This document shows, one piece after another, positions 6,100 through 13,057 of a stretch of 48,908 bases of DNA (its first letter is position 1; every line of letters starts with the position of its first letter). The notes beneath the pieces are model-generated. The model made no database searches. It was given only the letters and a program-made list of their open reading frames with translations, and had not been told where the DNA came from. Origin of the DNA: Candidatus Methylomirabilota bacterium (GTDB lineage Bacteria > Methylomirabilota > Methylomirabilia > Rokubacteriales > CSP1-6); NCBI GenBank assembly GCA_036001065.1, contig DASYUQ010000001.1:1-48908 (forward strand). The letters run 5' to 3'. Position numbers and translations under genes: made by a program.

Positions 6100-6375
6100 T
6101 CAGAAGTACTCGAACGTGGTCTCGCCACGCTCCATCCGCAGCCGCAAGTCGGCCATGAAGACCAGATAGGGGTGGGCGCCGCGCGCCAGCAGCGCTTCCC
6201 GGTCGCCGGCCAGCAGGGCGCCCTGCTCGTCCTCGGCGAGACCCATCTGGCGCAGGGCGGCGGTGGCATCGGCCAGGAACCGCGCCCGGAAAGCTGGATC
6301 GGACTTGAGCGCGTAGAGGCAGCGGTTGAGCCGGTAGGCGCTGGCCGGCGGAAACCGGTAGTGAGCCTCGTCCAT
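6100..6375 (-). CDS. LigA-like small subunit of an extradiol dioxygenase
   Basis: A 91-aa all-helical protein resembling the alpha (LigA) subunit of protocatechuate 4,5-dioxygenase-type enzymes. Recognisable elements are an N-terminal YRLNRCLYALKSDPAFRARF stretch and a central region with QMGLAEDEQGALLAGD. In the family this subunit has no metal and closes the active site of the LigB-type subunit. It lies directly downstream of a LigB homologue. The chosen ATG (6375) overlaps, as TGATG, the stop of a 9-codon minigene that itself starts in the LigB stop (ATGA). There is no clear Shine-Dalgarno, so translation probably depends on coupling. The substrate cannot be read from sequence. Confidence 0.8.
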   Translation of the reverse strand: MDEAHYRFPPASAYRLNRCLYALKSDPAFRARFLADATAALRQMGLAEDEQGALLAGDREALLARGAHPYLVFMADLRLRMERGETTFEYF

Positions 6376-6404
6376 CAGAGGAGCCGCTCGATCGCGGTCG
6401 TCAT
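6375..6404 (-). other. Nine-codon bridging ORF between LigB and LigA genes
   Basis: ATG 6404-6402 overlaps the LigB stop (ATGA), encodes MTTAIERLL, and its TGA (6377-6375) overlaps the LigA ATG (TGATG). It could act as a re-initiation bridge coupling the two subunits. Alternatively it is a relic of an N-terminal extension altered by an indel or a sequence error. Confidence 0.35.
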
Positions 6405-7186
6405 ATCGGCCACTCGACCACCGCGTTGCCGTGGTGCCAGGAGGGCTCGTAGCAGTAGACGTCGGCCTTCGCATCGCCGACCGCGCCCAGGACCGTGATC
6501 CACGTGCGCAGCTCGATGTTGCCGACCTGGTCCAGCTCCTCGCCGGTGACCTCCGCCAGCTCCCCGCCGCGGCCCCCCGCCAGCTTGTCGAGCACGCGCC
6601 GATCCCAGTCGAACTCCGGCGAGGCGTAGCGGTCGGTGCCGGGGAAGTGCGACATCCCGCCCGACGCCATCAGGACGACGCGCTCCGGGCGCGCGCGCAC
6701 GATCTCCCCCACCACCCGCCCCCACTCGTGACAGCGCCGCGGGGTCGGTTGGGGCGGCAGGTAGACGTTGACATGGAGCGGCACGATCGGCACCGCCGGC
6801 TCGGGCATCGTGAAGTGCAGCGGCACGAAGAACGCGTAGTCGAGCGGCGCCTCTTGCGTGTAGAAGAGGTCGAAGCCGCGCTCGACCCCGTGCGCGACCA
6901 GGGCGCGGGCCAGCGGCTCGTGGATGAGGAAGCGGTAGCGGTAGGGCCCGAACGCGCCCGCGCACTCGACGCCCACGTACACGGCCAGCGCCGGCACCGC
7001 GTCGAGGAAGAACGCCTCGATATGATCGCCGGCGACGATCACCAGCGCGTCGGGCCGCAGCTCGGCCAGGCGCCGCTGGACGCGCGCGAAGGCGGCGTGC
7101 ACGCGCAGCACCAGGTCGCGGTCTTCGCTCTCCGGCCGCGCCAGGAGCTGGGGCGTGTGGGCGCAGGCGAAGGCGCCGACCAGCAT
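6401..7186 (-). CDS. LigB-type extradiol ring-cleavage dioxygenase
   Basis: A 261-aa class III (LigB) extradiol dioxygenase catalytic subunit, which opens catechol-like rings using non-haem Fe(II). Family features visible: an early His (ACAHTPQLL), VIVAGDHIEAFF with the His usual in the metal site, the central VPLHVNVYLPP, MASGGMSHFPGTD with a conserved Ser-His, and a C-terminal ELRTWITVLGAV helix typical of protocatechuate/gallate 4,5-dioxygenases. It has a 1-nt TGATG overlap with the upstream acetamidase gene and is followed by a LigA-like subunit gene, so an alpha/beta enzyme is likely. The neighbouring amidase suggests the ring may carry or derive from an amide, but the substrate is inference. 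Confidence 0.85.
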   Translation of the reverse strand: MLVGAFACAHTPQLLARPESEDRDLVLRVHAAFARVQRRLAELRPDALVIVAGDHIEAFFLDAVPALAVYVGVECAGAFGPYRYRFLIHEPLARALVAHGVERGFDLFYTQEAPLDYAFFVPLHFTMPEPAVPIVPLHVNVYLPPQPTPRRCHEWGRVVGEIVRARPERVVLMASGGMSHFPGTDRYASPEFDWDRRVLDKLAGGRGGELAEVTGEELDQVGNIELRTWITVLGAVGDAKADVYCYEPSWHHGNAVVEWPI

Positions 7187-8085
7187 CAGCGCCCGGCCGC
7201 CGCCACCAGCACCGCCCGCGGAATGATGAGCCGCGCCGCCATCACCGGCCGGGGGGACGTCCCGATGCGCAGCTCGCCGACGATGGAGAGCAGCATGTAG
7301 GCCTCCCGGCGGTCCAGGCCGGTCCGCGCCACGAAGAAGTCGACGGCGCCCCGCGCGGCGTCCTCCGTCGCGATCTCCACGGTGGGGCCGAAGCCGAGCA
7401 CCTGCACCGTGTCGTCGACCTCGATGATCGGCCGGTCGAGGGCGCGCTGCTTGTCCAGCGCCACCCGCGCCCGGACGGTGGCATCGCACTCCACGCCGGT
7501 GCCGCTGATGATGCCGTCGCTGATCGCCGCGTGGGGATCGGCGAAGAAGAGCAGCGCGCCCTCCACCATCACCGGCAGGTGGACGCGGGCGCCGGCGCGC
7601 ACGTCCTTCTGGTCGAAGTCGCCCCCGTAGGGTCCGGCGTAGGCGGGCTTGTAGCCGTCGGGCGGCATGGTGGAGACGGTGCCCAGGTTCGGATTGAGCG
7701 GGAGGGGAATGCGCCCGCCGAACCACGCGTAGCCGTCCTTCACGGGACAGCCGACGGCGGTCGGCTCGCCGAACTCCGCCCGCAGCACGCCGAAGTCGCG
7801 GACGATCGCCGTCTTGCCGTCGCCGTGGGGCGTGATCTCGAGCAGGTCGACGACGACGGCGTCGCCCGGCTCGGCCCCGCGCACGCGCACGGGCCCGGCG
7901 ATCGGCGCCAGCGGGTGGCCGTCACAGGCGGGCGTGAACGGCGTGGGGACCAGCCGGATGTCGGGCACGTCGGCGAAGGCGCCGCGGACCTCGAGCGTGA
8001 ACTCCTCGCCCGGCGCCACCTCGAGCGCGGGCGGGGTGGAGGGGTTGACGTCGAAGAGGTACCAGGTCTTCACCGCGGTCGTCAT
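7186..8085 (-). CDS. Acetamidase/formamidase family amidohydrolase
   Basis: A 299-aa member of the FmdA/AmdA family (short-chain amide to carboxylate plus ammonia, or related C-N hydrolysis). Diagnostic stretches include GPVRVRGAEPGDAVVVDLLE near residue 65, RIPLPLNPNLGTV, an acidic and His-rich block in FFADPHAAISDGIISGTGVE, and the terminal ARTGLDRREAYMLLS. Many family members are about 300 aa, so length is normal. The start ATG overlaps the stop of the selenoprotein gene (ATGA) and its stop overlaps the LigB start (TGATG), placing it in the middle of a fully coupled operon. Real substrates of this family are diverse; formamide or acetamide is not proven. Confidence 0.88.
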   Translation of the reverse strand: MTTAVKTWYLFDVNPSTPPALEVAPGEEFTLEVRGAFADVPDIRLVPTPFTPACDGHPLAPIAGPVRVRGAEPGDAVVVDLLEITPHGDGKTAIVRDFGVLRAEFGEPTAVGCPVKDGYAWFGGRIPLPLNPNLGTVSTMPPDGYKPAYAGPYGGDFDQKDVRAGARVHLPVMVEGALLFFADPHAAISDGIISGTGVECDATVRARVALDKQRALDRPIIEVDDTVQVLGFGPTVEIATEDAARGAVDFFVARTGLDRREAYMLLSIVGELRIGTSPRPVMAARLIIPRAVLVAAAGR

Positions 8086-8615
8086 GTGGTCAGCCTCCGC
8101 ACGATCTCATCGAACGCCTTGTCCGCCAGCGCCCGCACCTCCTCGCGGGTGAGCGGCTGGATCGGATGCGGGACCACGACGGTCCGGTAGTCGCGGGCGC
8201 CCAGCGCCTCGGCCTGGGCGCGGGCGGCGTGGACGAACTCGGAGGAGACGACCGTCGCGGTGGGAATGCCATGATCCTCGAAGAACACGCCGTCGTGCAC
8301 ACTGCACGTGGTGCACGACCCTCAGTCGGCGAGCGCTTCGATGAGAACGTCGGTGCGCCCCACGATCTCCTGGCGCAGGGGGTCGGGCGCCGGCCGCGCG
8401 AACGTCGGCTTCTTCTTGCGCACGATCGCCTGGGGCCGCGCCCGCTCGCGCAGCAGCTCCTCGATGCGGTCCAGCAGGTGGTCGCCCTTGGCCTTGGAGA
8501 TGTCGAGCAGGGTGATCACCGTGCCCTCGAGCGTCGCCGGCCGGCGCGCCGTCTGCCGGGGAACGGCCACCGAGTCGGTCGGGTCCAGATACTCGTCGGG
8601 CGGGTTCGCGGACAT
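8082..8615 (-). CDS. UGSC-family selenoprotein, in-frame TGA = Sec98
   Basis: Read through TGA 8324-8322, the frame gives a continuous 177-residue protein. Residues 1-97 end in ...LIEALAD, then U98-G-S-C101-T-T-C104-S-V-H-D-G-V-F-F-E-D, and a typical C-terminal half (PTATVVSSEF, VVVPHPIQPL). This is the signature after which the UGSC (seleno)protein family is named, so the TGA is read as selenocysteine rather than as a stop. U98/C101 would form a selenenylsulfide-type redox pair, with C104 close by. The start is ATG 8615 with AAGGAGG 5 nt upstream; GTG 8630 would precede that site. The two halves would otherwise be a 97-aa ORF and a headless 80-aa ORF, both well conserved in character. A 9-bp hairpin follows the TGA. 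It overlaps the acetamidase start (ATGA). The biochemical role of the family is unknown to me. Confidence 0.88.
8292..8319 (-). promoter_or_regulatory. SECIS-like hairpin just after the Sec codon
   Basis: Starting 2 nt after TGA, the minus strand reads GTCGTGCAC, a 10-nt loop CACGTGCAGT, then GTGCACGAC: a perfect 9-bp stem inside the coding sequence. Bacterial selenocysteine insertion elements are hairpins right downstream of UGA with G/U in the apical loop; this loop contains GU. The loop begins only about 11 nt after the UGA, closer than in the usual bacterial consensus, so the active fold may differ. Confidence 0.55.
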
Positions 8616-8626
8616 GGGGTCCTCCT

Positions 8627-9697
8627 TCACGGGATGTGGATCTTCCTGAAGACCAGGCTGGAACCCTTGGAAAACGTCCAGCCGGGGACGATCGCCGAGA
8701 ACCGCCCGGCGGTGCCGCCGGCGACGACGATCTTGAGGTTCTCCGGCGATCGGAACTTGGGAACGAGGGTGTCATCGTCCTCGGGCCGCGCGAACTTCCG
8801 CAGCACGTGCTCGGGCAGCCCCTCGCCGCCGTCCTTGCCGGGGACGAGGTCGCGCACCGGGCGCCGCAGCCGCTCGAAGAGGTAGCCGCGGATGTCCGCC
8901 TTCGTCCACCCGTCGCCCGCGATGGTCCGGGCGTGTTCGGGCGACAGCACCAGGAGCGTGTCGCCCCAGTGCGTCATCTTGTGGTTGGCCACCACGGCCA
9001 GGCTCGGCGCGATGGTCGCCAGGAGGTCGGCGGCCCGCCGGCTCCGCTGGTCGTACACGCCGAGCGGCGCGTCCGCCGCCAGCACGGCGACCGTGCTGTC
9101 CTGGGGTCCGAACCCGTGCTCGACGGCCAGCGACGGCCACGGGCTCACCTCTTCGTATTCGCCGATGCAGTAGGTGTAGCGCCCGGGATGCGCGAGGGTC
9201 GACATGCTGATGGCCCCGGGTCGCGCGCCCCCGACGTTCACGCACACCAGTCTGAGCGCCCGGCCGATGGTGGCGTTGGCGCGCCGGCCCGAGCCGAAGA
9301 CTCCGGCACCGCAGTTGACGTCGAGCGCGGTGCGCGCCGGCCCGTTCACGATCACCAGCGGGCTAGGGGCGTTCGTCGTGGCGGAAACACCGTGGAGGTC
9401 GAAGGCCTCGTCGCACACCGCCTCCACCGCTGCGATGACGACGGGCAGGTACTCCGGCCGGCAGCCGGCCATGACGGCGTTGACCGCGATCTTCTCGACG
9501 GTGGCGCGGCCGTAATTGGGCGGGACGAGGGCCACGAGGTCCTGGCCGTGGCGGCCGCAGCCCTCGACCGCGCGCCGGACCCGGTCGGGCGTCGGCGGTA
9601 CCACGGGCAGCCCGTCGGTGACGCCCCGGGCGTGGAGCGCCTCGATGGGGTCGGCCTCGGTTTCCGGCTCCACGATTGGTCGGCCTCCCGGCGGCAT
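8627..9697 (-). CDS. Conserved protein of unknown function, UGSC partner
   Basis: A 356-aa protein that I do not recognise as a named enzyme. Conserved-looking features: an N-terminal GVTDGLPVVPPTPDRV segment, KIAVNAVMAGCRPEYLPVV, a Cys in DVNCGAGVFGSGRRAN, a His/acid-rich middle, and C-terminal VAGGTAGRFSAIVPGW. There is no signal peptide or membrane segment. It ends 11 nt before the selenoprotein ATG, whose ribosome site overlaps its stop, so the two are probably made together and may work as a pair. ATG 9697 lacks a ribosome site; GTG 9673 has GGGAGG 10 nt upstream and may be the true start, which would remove eight residues. Confidence 0.75.
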   Translation of the reverse strand: MPPGGRPIVEPETEADPIEALHARGVTDGLPVVPPTPDRVRRAVEGCGRHGQDLVALVPPNYGRATVEKIAVNAVMAGCRPEYLPVVIAAVEAVCDEAFDLHGVSATTNAPSPLVIVNGPARTALDVNCGAGVFGSGRRANATIGRALRLVCVNVGGARPGAISMSTLAHPGRYTYCIGEYEEVSPWPSLAVEHGFGPQDSTVAVLAADAPLGVYDQRSRRAADLLATIAPSLAVVANHKMTHWGDTLLVLSPEHARTIAGDGWTKADIRGYLFERLRRPVRDLVPGKDGGEGLPEHVLRKFARPEDDDTLVPKFRSPENLKIVVAGGTAGRFSAIVPGWTFSKGSSLVFRKIHIP

Positions 9698-9748: not shown

Positions 9749-9803
9749 TTTCGAGCGCCGGCTCCGCCGGCGCCACCTTTGGGGGAGGCTCGGAGGGGGG
9801 CCG
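9749..9803 (+). repeat. GC-rich intergenic repeat, copy A
   Basis: TTTCGAGCGCCGGC-TCC-GCCGGCGCC palindrome followed by a purine-rich tail (GGGGGAGG...GGAGGGGGG-CCGT). An imperfect copy in the same orientation lies at 10638-10695. The two bracket the DUF3047 gene. Confidence 0.6.
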
Positions 9804-9827
9804 TGAGGCCTCCCTTCGACCATGAAT

Positions 9828-10637: not shown

Positions 10638-10695
10638 TTTCGAGCGCCGGCCTTGCCGGCGCCCTCCTTCCTGGGGGAGGTTTGGGAGGGGGCCG
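10638..10695 (+). repeat. GC-rich intergenic repeat, copy B
   Basis: TTTCGAGCGCCGGC-CTT-GCCGGCGCC palindrome plus purine-rich tail GGGGGAGG...GGGAGGGGGCCGT, an imperfect copy of 9749-9803 in the same orientation. It lies upstream of the DUF3047 gene. Confidence 0.6.
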
Positions 10696-10736: not shown

Positions 10737-12146
10737 TTAGCGTCCCCGGCGCCACCAGTGATGCACGAGGTTGTCCACGACCTCGCCGAGCTGGCCGATC
10801 GTCCGGCACTCGCGGACGAGGTCGCAGGCCGGCGCGTACAGCGGCATCACGCTGTCGCCGACGCCCCAGCCCCACTGACCCTCGGGGTTCAACCAGATGA
10901 TACCCTTCACCCGCTCGCGTATCATTCTGAGCGCCCAGGCCTGCGGGTCGTTGTAGTTGTTCCGGGCGTCGCCCAGGACGAGGATCGTCGTCCGCCGGTC
11001 CAGGGTGTCCAGCTCCGTCCGCACGAACTGGCTGAAGGCGTACCCGAAGTCCGAGCGGCAGTGGTAGTCGACGGGCGCGGCCTTGAGCGCCCACTCGATG
11101 GCGCGTTCCACCGGGTAGGTGCTGAAGGCCTCGGTCACCTCGGCCACCTCCGAGACGAACACGAACGAGCGCACGCGGCTGAAGCACTCCTGGAGGCTCC
11201 AGACGAGCTGGAGCATGAAGCGGGAAGCGTTGCGGACGGAGTCGGACACGTCACAGACGGTCACCAGCTTGGGCTTGTCGCGGTGGCGCCGGCGGAGGAA
11301 GACCTCCATGGGGACCCCGTCGTACTGCAGGCTCTTGCGGATCGTGCGCCGGGTGTCGAGGCGGCCTCGCTGCTCCTGGCGCTGCCGCAGCACCAGCGCG
11401 TCCTTGATCTTGCGGGCCAGGCGCGCCACCACCGTCTTCATCTGCGCGACCTCGTCCGCGGTCAGCGCGAAGAGGGGCTTGTCGGCGAGCGTCTCGCGCT
11501 GGAGCCTCTCGCCCTGGCGCCAAGCCCGTCGCTCCAGCTCCCGCTCGACGTGCTGGCGGATCAGGCGGCGAAACGCCTCCAGCCGGAGCTCCAGATAGTT
11601 GCGGATGCGCGCCAGCTGCCCGGGGTCCAGCCCGCGAGCCTCCAGCAGCCGGAGGATCTGCTCGAGATCGCGCTCGATGGCGGCGACGTCGAGGCGGTCG
11701 GCGAGGCGGAGCGAGAAGTAGCCGACCTGCAGGAAGTACATGAGGCGCTCCAGCCCGACGTTGCGTCCGCCGGAGCGGATGGTCATCTCCATCTCCGCCC
11801 CTTGCCCGCGCAGCAGCAGCTCCGTGAGCTCGTCGAGATCCAGGCCCTCGTCGGCGACGAGCTGGTCGAGGAAATCTTGAAGATGGGGATCCTCGGGCCC
11901 GACCGCCTTCTTGAGACCTTCCCCCAACGCCTGGAGATCGAGGAAGTACAGGTCGAAGAGCCGGTCGAAGGTCGCGCGGTCACGCCCTTCCTTGACGAGC
12001 GTGGTGGCCAGGGCGGTCTTGAACGTCTCGCGGTCCCGGAGCCCGACTTCGGCGGCGGCGGCCAGCGCGTCTAGCGCCTCTGACGGCGAGATGCGGATCT
12101 CGGCCCGGCGGAGGTCGCCGATGAACTCGAGGATCCGCTGGTCCAC
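10737..12146 (-). CDS. VWA domain protein, CoxE-like
   Basis: A 469-aa protein with an N-terminal helical, charged region (EFIGDLRRAEIRISPSEALD start) and a C-terminal von Willebrand A domain. The MIDAS motif is in VTVCDVSDSVRNASRF (D-x-S-x-S), with the conserved Asp in ILVLGDARNNYNDP. Family members (CoxE and relatives) act with MoxR AAA ATPases in cofactor insertion or maturation of partner enzymes. It starts at GTG 12146, 2 nt after the stop of the MoxR-like gene, so the two form one unit. No carbon monoxide dehydrogenase or molybdenum enzyme is encoded in the window, so the client is not known. Confidence 0.87.
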   Translation of the reverse strand: MDQRILEFIGDLRRAEIRISPSEALDALAAAAEVGLRDRETFKTALATTLVKEGRDRATFDRLFDLYFLDLQALGEGLKKAVGPEDPHLQDFLDQLVADEGLDLDELTELLLRGQGAEMEMTIRSGGRNVGLERLMYFLQVGYFSLRLADRLDVAAIERDLEQILRLLEARGLDPGQLARIRNYLELRLEAFRRLIRQHVERELERRAWRQGERLQRETLADKPLFALTADEVAQMKTVVARLARKIKDALVLRQRQEQRGRLDTRRTIRKSLQYDGVPMEVFLRRRHRDKPKLVTVCDVSDSVRNASRFMLQLVWSLQECFSRVRSFVFVSEVAEVTEAFSTYPVERAIEWALKAAPVDYHCRSDFGYAFSQFVRTELDTLDRRTTILVLGDARNNYNDPQAWALRMIRERVKGIIWLNPEGQWGWGVGDSVMPLYAPACDLVRECRTIGQLGEVVDNLVHHWWRRGR

Positions 12147-12148
12147 GC

Positions 12149-13057
12149 TCAGTCGGCGAGGACTTTGTCGAGCGCCCCCCGGACACGCTCGAGGTCCTTC
12201 TCGTACTTCACCAGCATCGTCAGCGTGGACTCCACCAGCGCGGGATCGAGCGTCTGGGCGTTGAGGATCACCAGCGAGCGCGCCCAGTCCAGGGACTCCG
12301 AGACCGACGGCGACTTGCGCAGGTCCATCGCCCGGATCCTCTGGACTGCCGCCACCACCGCCTTGGCCAGCCGCTCGGGGATCTGCGGCACCTTGAGGCG
12401 GATGATCTCGAGCTCCTCGGCCGGCGTCGGGAAGTCGATGAACAGGTGCAGGCAGCGCCGCTTGAGGCCGTCGCTGAGCTCCCGCGCGTTGTTGGACGTG
12501 AGCGCCACGAACGGGATGTGCCGGGCGCGGATCGTCCCCAGCTCCGGCACCGAGACCTGGAAGTCGGAGAGCACCTCCAGGAGGAACGCCTCGAACTCCG
12601 GCTCGGCCTTGTCGATCTCGTCGACGAGGAGGACGACCGGCGTGTCCGCCAGGATCGCCTGGAGCAGCGGGCGCGGCGAGAGGAACCGGAAGGAGAAGAA
12701 GGCGTCCTCCTGCCCGGCGATCTTGGTGACGGCGTCGGGCAATGACATCGCGTCGGTGATCAGCTCACCAATCCGCTCTCGCAGTAGTTGCGAGTAGAGC
12801 AACTGCTTCGCATATTTCCATTCATACAGCGCCTTGCCCTCGTCCAGCCCCTCGTAGCACTGCAGGCGGATCAGCGGGCGCGCGGCCACGTCGGCCAGCG
12901 TCTTGGCCAGCTCGGTCTTGCCCACCCCGGCCGGTCCCTCGATGAGCACGGGGCGGCCCATCCGGGCGGCCAGGAACACGACGGTGGAGATCCGCCGGCT
13001 CGCGATGTAGTTCGCGGCGCGGAACCGCTGCTGGACGTCGTCGACCGATTCGAACAT
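12149..13057 (-). CDS. MoxR family AAA+ ATPase
   Basis: A 302-aa ATPase with Walker A GPAGVGKTE, Walker B VVLLVDEIDKAE, sensor-1 FVALTSNNARE and arginine-finger region LKRRCLHLFIDFP. These are typical of MoxR/CoxD proteins, which remodel partner complexes together with a VWA protein. ATG 13057 is chosen because GGAG lies 8 nt upstream and the family starts near V-D-D-V-Q-x-R; a longer open frame upstream has no coding character. It is the first gene of the pair with the CoxE-like protein. The region up to the divergent gene at 13145 is short. Confidence 0.9.
   Translation of the reverse strand: MFESVDDVQQRFRAANYIASRRISTVVFLAARMGRPVLIEGPAGVGKTELAKTLADVAARPLIRLQCYEGLDEGKALYEWKYAKQLLYSQLLRERIGELITDAMSLPDAVTKIAGQEDAFFSFRFLSPRPLLQAILADTPVVLLVDEIDKAEPEFEAFLLEVLSDFQVSVPELGTIRARHIPFVALTSNNARELSDGLKRRCLHLFIDFPTPAEELEIIRLKVPQIPERLAKAVVAAVQRIRAMDLRKSPSVSESLDWARSLVILNAQTLDPALVESTLTMLVKYEKDLERVRGALDKVLAD

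Follow-up and report, generated by a model that had tools for sequence, protein, structure and literature searches.

An in-frame TGA in a Rokubacteria gene very probably encodes the selenocysteine of a UGSC-family protein with a conserved partner gene

UGSC is an abundant selenoprotein family with no assigned function (PMC2398784) that also appears in a 2026 review, where a MAG from the phylum studied here is reported to carry 63 selenoprotein genes (PMC13188914). A Trx-like fold has been suggested for UGSC, and in the GOS set the protein is found fused to a domain termed ‘Unknown_1’ (PMC2398784, Fig. S1A). The hairpin of bacterial selenoprotein genes has been captured in a bSECIS model with a 3–9 nt loop carrying a G in its first two positions, a 4–16 bp stem and a spacing of 16–37 nt (PMC13188914). 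GrdB and PrdB, the selenoproteins of glycine and D-proline reductase (PF07355), belong to systems that co-encode a pyruvoyl proprotein of the GrdE/PrdA type.

The window analyzed here is a stretch of 48,908 nt (contig DASYUQ010000001.1 of assembly GCA_036001065.1) from a soil bacterium, represented by a MAG within Rokubacteria. The features that concern us are the following:

6100–6384, minus strand: LigA-like subunit (PF07746)
6401–7186, minus strand: LigB-like extradiol dioxygenase gene (PF02900)
7186–8085, minus strand: FmdA_AmdA-like (acetamidase/formamidase) gene (PF03069), overlapping the UGSC stop as ATGA
8082–8615, minus strand: UGSC-family gene, very probably for a selenoprotein (177 aa, among them a single Sec); stop codon TGA, 8082–8084; NF041046 and PF24696 above cut-off on read-through
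8294–8308, minus strand: core of the putative bSECIS hairpin, CGUGC-AGUGU-GCACG, 18 nt after the UGA; supported by covariation, a synonymous freeze and the published model
8322–8324, minus strand: in-frame TGA, the probable Sec codon (U of UGSC); TGA in each of the 38 orthologues and TGC in five homologues at greater distance
8627–9697, minus strand: partner gene ‘UP356’, 356 aa, adjoining 78 of 90 UGSC copies; no Pfam or NCBIfam match

Two minus-strand ORFs, 8630–8322 and 8300–8082, share a common frame with a single TGA (8324–8322) between them, and the preliminary description, which had held that they join without a frame change, proved exact in coordinates, frame and motif. The codons directly 3′ of the TGA, GGG TCG TGC ACC ACG TGC AGT GTG CAC, encode G-S-C-T-T-C-S-V-H, and read-through yields the motif A-D-U-G-S-C-T-T-C-S-V-H-D-G, in which Sec is residue 98 and residue 97 precedes the UGA. 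The better and likely start of the gene is ATG 8615, shortly 3′ of an AGGAGG. Its neighbors are intact and coupled, as had also been proposed, with UP356 ending at 8627 and the FmdA_AmdA-like gene starting at 8085 within the ATGA overlap. Scanning the window for other in-frame TGA candidates, we judged none credible.

The read-through protein matches NF041046 with 164.7 bits (cut-off 125) and PF24696 with 176.3 bits (cut-off 25), so that the search against the UGSC family that had been suggested placed it above both curated cut-offs. Our search of genome contigs returned 80 relatives; the 38 orthologues (loci L100–L137) come from Rokubacteria and Binatia-type genomes at 54–97% identity, and the Sec codon is TGA in every one, which together with the read-through scores excludes chance. 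The nearest named relative, Candidatus Rokubacteria 13_1_40CM_69_27, shows 97–98% protein identity, and the copy in a sister genome is 98% identical. More distant homologues carry a UGSC, USSC or CGSC motif. The five CGSC (TGC) copies, from Nonomuraea, Acidimicrobiaceae, Streptosporangiaceae and a Burkholderiales, occupy two separate positions in the tree, one an actinobacterial clade and the other the Burkholderiales copy, nested among Sec forms. We counted 93 Sec and 5 Cys contexts of distinct sequence at this site, with TGA exchanged for Cys codons only; variation beyond U and C, which had been named in advance as evidence against a Sec codon, is not the case, every homologue examined having TGA or TGC. 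In two Methylomirabilota copies (L139 1318–1827 and L140 6001–6507) USSC, encoded by TGA AGC TCC TGC, replaces UGSC, and both keep the TGA and the SECIS hairpin. We also observed selA over cut-off in genomes with Cys-form UGSC (L138, L146, L152), so loss of the Sec pathway is not what imposed the Cys form. UGSC genes are present in 57 of 57 genomes of the window’s family, with one TGA on every listed copy; the host genome has five copies, and numbers per genome range from 2 to 12 across Rokubacteria. The window gene is thus an addition to an already known selenoprotein family.

Comparison of the window with other Rokubacteria gave dN/dS values of ~0.04–0.2 on both sides of the TGA, indicating that both halves of the gene are under purifying selection. 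Across 30 Rokubacteria, the first 12 codons past the TGA (+1 to +12) have a mean synonymous entropy of 0.23 bits vs 0.86–0.88 elsewhere, a value as low as this occurring in 0 of 100,000 permutations (p<1e-5), and within this nearly frozen stretch the Ser codon is AGT in all 30. Among 18 distinct UGSC sequences, a hairpin with an AGUNU loop has 95% of its cells paired, with covariation at pairs 19–29 (U-A, G-U or A-U) and 21–27 (C-G or G-C); none of 500 shuffles reached its covariation score, slid registers collapse, and the outermost pair (16–32) is A-A in the window’s own subgroup. The window hairpin fits the bSECIS model with its AGUGU loop, a stem of 5–6 bp and the distance of 18 nt from the UGA. 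The energy of the 18-nt core is marginal, at −7.4 kcal/mol vs the model limit of −7.5 (PMC13188914), and 42 nt in an alternative register reach −17.7 kcal/mol, a longer alternative pairing being possible in the window sequence. Since the folding energy of the SECIS region is by itself not significant relative to shuffles, comparative evidence was needed to single it out. The hairpin follows Sec copies and is altered in Cys copies. We propose that the hairpin 3′ of the UGA (8324–8322) would recruit SelB with Sec-tRNA at the ribosome, that Sec would be inserted at the UGA, and that translation would then run on to the TGA at 8084–8082. That such insertion occurs in vivo is suggested by the SECIS and by homology.

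We put the probability that the gene at 8082–8615 encodes a UGSC-family selenoprotein, as the preliminary description had claimed, at about 95%; family HMMs, TGA conservation, U/C interchange, selection on both sides and a covarying SECIS hairpin all bear it out. Standard annotation yields two fragments, and the host’s assembly lacks selA, selB and selC, as might be expected if the TGA came from a sequencing error or had arisen recently as a nonsense mutation in a gene of Cys type. Conservation refutes this reading, with an identical TGA in all 38 orthologues; purifying selection acts on both sides, identity to the sister copy is 96% on one side and 100% on the other, and apart from the TGA there is no further stop or frameshift. 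We consider a pseudogene or error extremely improbable, in line with the earlier judgment that decay was unlikely. The conserved read-through might instead reflect general recoding of TGA, for example as Trp or Cys, or leakage through the stop without Sec. TGA is nevertheless the ordinary stop here, terminating both the UP356 and the UGSC genes, homologues have Cys and never Trp, and the hairpin is altered where Cys replaces Sec, leaving this alternative a negligible share of the probability. An ORF does begin at GTG 8300 (minus strand), 3′ of the in-frame TGA, from which a second peptide could be made after a stop at the UGA, but such a restart would lose the conserved GSCxxC motif, and both parts form one domain in the HMMs and in the predicted fold, making two separate peptides scarcely credible.

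An additional question for the selenoprotein reading is the Sec machinery, since the preliminary description had pointed to selA, selB, selC and selD in the same genome and held that their absence would speak against it. In the host’s assembly (4.46 Mb, 239 contigs, completeness score 100%), selD is present at 342 bits and is itself encoded in the Sec form (L044), with an in-frame TGA at CAGUASK and a SECIS-like hairpin after it. No selA, selB or selC scored over cut-off, and the best eight sub-cut-off matches to tRNA-Sec are ordinary tRNAs. The anticipated absence thus formally holds for these three genes, with a break at a contig end, and does not hold for selD. Genomes of the family mostly carry the three genes over cut-off (selA 50/56, selB 50/56, selC 45/56), usually in one cluster. 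In the sister genome, selC-selA-selB lie at C80:10457–15283; the host’s own contig C80 (7,824 bp) matches the sister flank with 92% identity over 5.6 kb and ends ~0.75 kb before the position of selC in the sister. Apart from a dispersed repeat, nothing in the host’s assembly corresponds to the 12.4 kb that come next in the sister, so that the three sel genes and at least a further 6.7 kb are missing. The last 138 bp of the host’s contig C80 (L090 7083–7220) hold GAAAATGTCATCC twice, at a distance of 26 bp, a sequence found in none of the other loci examined; judged from the sequence, these copies resemble an insertion-sequence terminus. Contig breaks are commonly caused by repeats. Because the gap coincides with a contig end, we conclude that the absence of selA, selB and selC is most likely an assembly gap. 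The same missing segment and repeats could be left by a real, IS-mediated loss of the sel genes, with the UGSC gene now translated only to the UGA as a very recent relic. Against such a loss, the break falls where a contig ends, the usual effect of repeats; the genome keeps five UGSC copies along with a Sec-type SelD, and the cluster persists in the sister genome and almost all of the relatives. In four further relatives selA and selB are both absent, which the fragmentation of MAGs would lead one to expect. We therefore regard a real loss as very improbable and retain the assembly gap as our reading.

Upstream of the UGSC gene lies UP356, which has no match among Pfam, NCBIfam or PDB families. 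A UP356 homologue is found on the same strand within ~700 nt in 78 of the 90 UGSC copies examined, mostly with gaps of −14 to +96 nt as estimated from the motif position; it may precede or follow UGSC and accompanies Sec forms and all five Cys forms. Several of the UGSC copies without an adjoining UP356 lie at contig ends. The association recalls ‘Unknown_1’, likewise a conserved, UGSC-linked domain, and UP356 is possibly this domain. No PDB structure is a convincing relative of the fold predicted for UP356 (pLDDT 88). Its fold matches to class I fumarate hydratase and the Toblerone-fold cyclic amide hydrolases were weak and of low probability, and we rejected both as relatives. The other neighbors are less constant: the FmdA, LigB and LigA genes are found 3′ of UGSC in only part of Rokubacteria, the FmdA-like gene beside UGSC in only some and the LigB-like gene in many orthologues. 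UGSC pairs in other phyla have CoA-transferase, acyl-CoA dehydrogenase, SDR, luciferase-like monooxygenase and FAA hydrolase neighbors, which suggest catabolism without pointing to a single reaction. A CoxE-type VWA protein beside an AAA ATPase (10737–13045), upstream and on the same strand as UGSC, probably belongs to a separate operon. We also observed a GC-rich palindromic REP-like repeat of ~70–104 bp at some 40 places in the host genome, with two copies in the window (9750–9820 and 10639–10694), one of them just upstream of the UP356-UGSC operon; in the sister genome it is found between selA and selB (L085 9253–9356).

The predicted structure of UGSC (pLDDT 91.7) is an alternating beta/alpha, Rossmann-like domain in which the third helix begins with Sec, following a central strand. 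Its PDB neighbors are flavodoxin-like with weak TM-scores, and we predict a flavodoxin-like fold from this model; the thioredoxin fold was rejected, the model having flavodoxin-type rather than thioredoxin neighbors. Profiles of UGSC and UP356 retrieved nothing credible from PDB sequences. The window subgroup, UGSCTTCSVHDG, differs from the UGSC family in an extra Cys (C-T-T-C) and shares with it the HMM match, the motif, the Sec/Cys interchange and the bSECIS. We then compared UGSC with GrdB/PrdB-type proteins of Rokubacteria, each read past its in-frame TGA (UGTS, UGTC, UPVC). The hhalign probability is 93.7% (P 2e-7) with Sec aligned on Sec, and still 56% (P 1e-4) with the UGSC motif masked; these values come from small alignments of this clade, and the motif accounts for part of the match. 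As controls, 40 column-shuffled profiles gave at most 0.6% and a reversed profile 0.3%. The aligned segments are a strand, U-x-x-C, a helix, E..GIPT and HP. This likeness at the profile level is suggestive of homology between UGSC and the Sec domain of GrdB/PrdB. PF07355 itself has no match in the UGSC protein, and neither PF07355 nor PF09338 has one in the host genome.

Unlike the proprotein co-encoded in GrdB/PrdB systems, UP356 is unrelated to GrdE/PrdA: it shows no relation to GrdB, GrdE or UGSC profiles, and its probability against PF09338 is 0.2%. A glycine-reductase-like pyruvoyl mechanism is therefore unsupported. By analogy with GrdB/PrdB, Sec might serve as nucleophile or reductant toward a substrate and not as a thiol donor of the general thioredoxin-like kind. 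The modeled flavodoxin-like alpha/beta domain may have its resolving Cys three residues after Sec, and UGSC and UP356 would probably work together as the two subunits of an enzyme encoded in a catabolic operon. Such a two-subunit, GrdB-like selenolate enzyme is a tentative proposal, to which we give somewhat less than even odds. With similar reserve, we speculate that UGSC-UP356 could be a previously unrecognized two-subunit selenoenzyme in which a GrdB/PrdB-like Sec domain is joined by a partner of new fold replacing GrdE/PrdA, catabolic in role and expanded to 2–12 UGSC copies per genome across Rokubacteria.

An apparent pair of gene fragments is thus best read as one selenoprotein, and automatic annotation may overlook several genes of this kind in each genome of a whole bacterial family. 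More useful still, a selenoprotein that ranks among the commonest of the uncharacterized ones gains GrdB/PrdB as candidate superfamily and a conserved gene as partner, and with both in hand the biochemistry of UGSC would become testable by co-expression.
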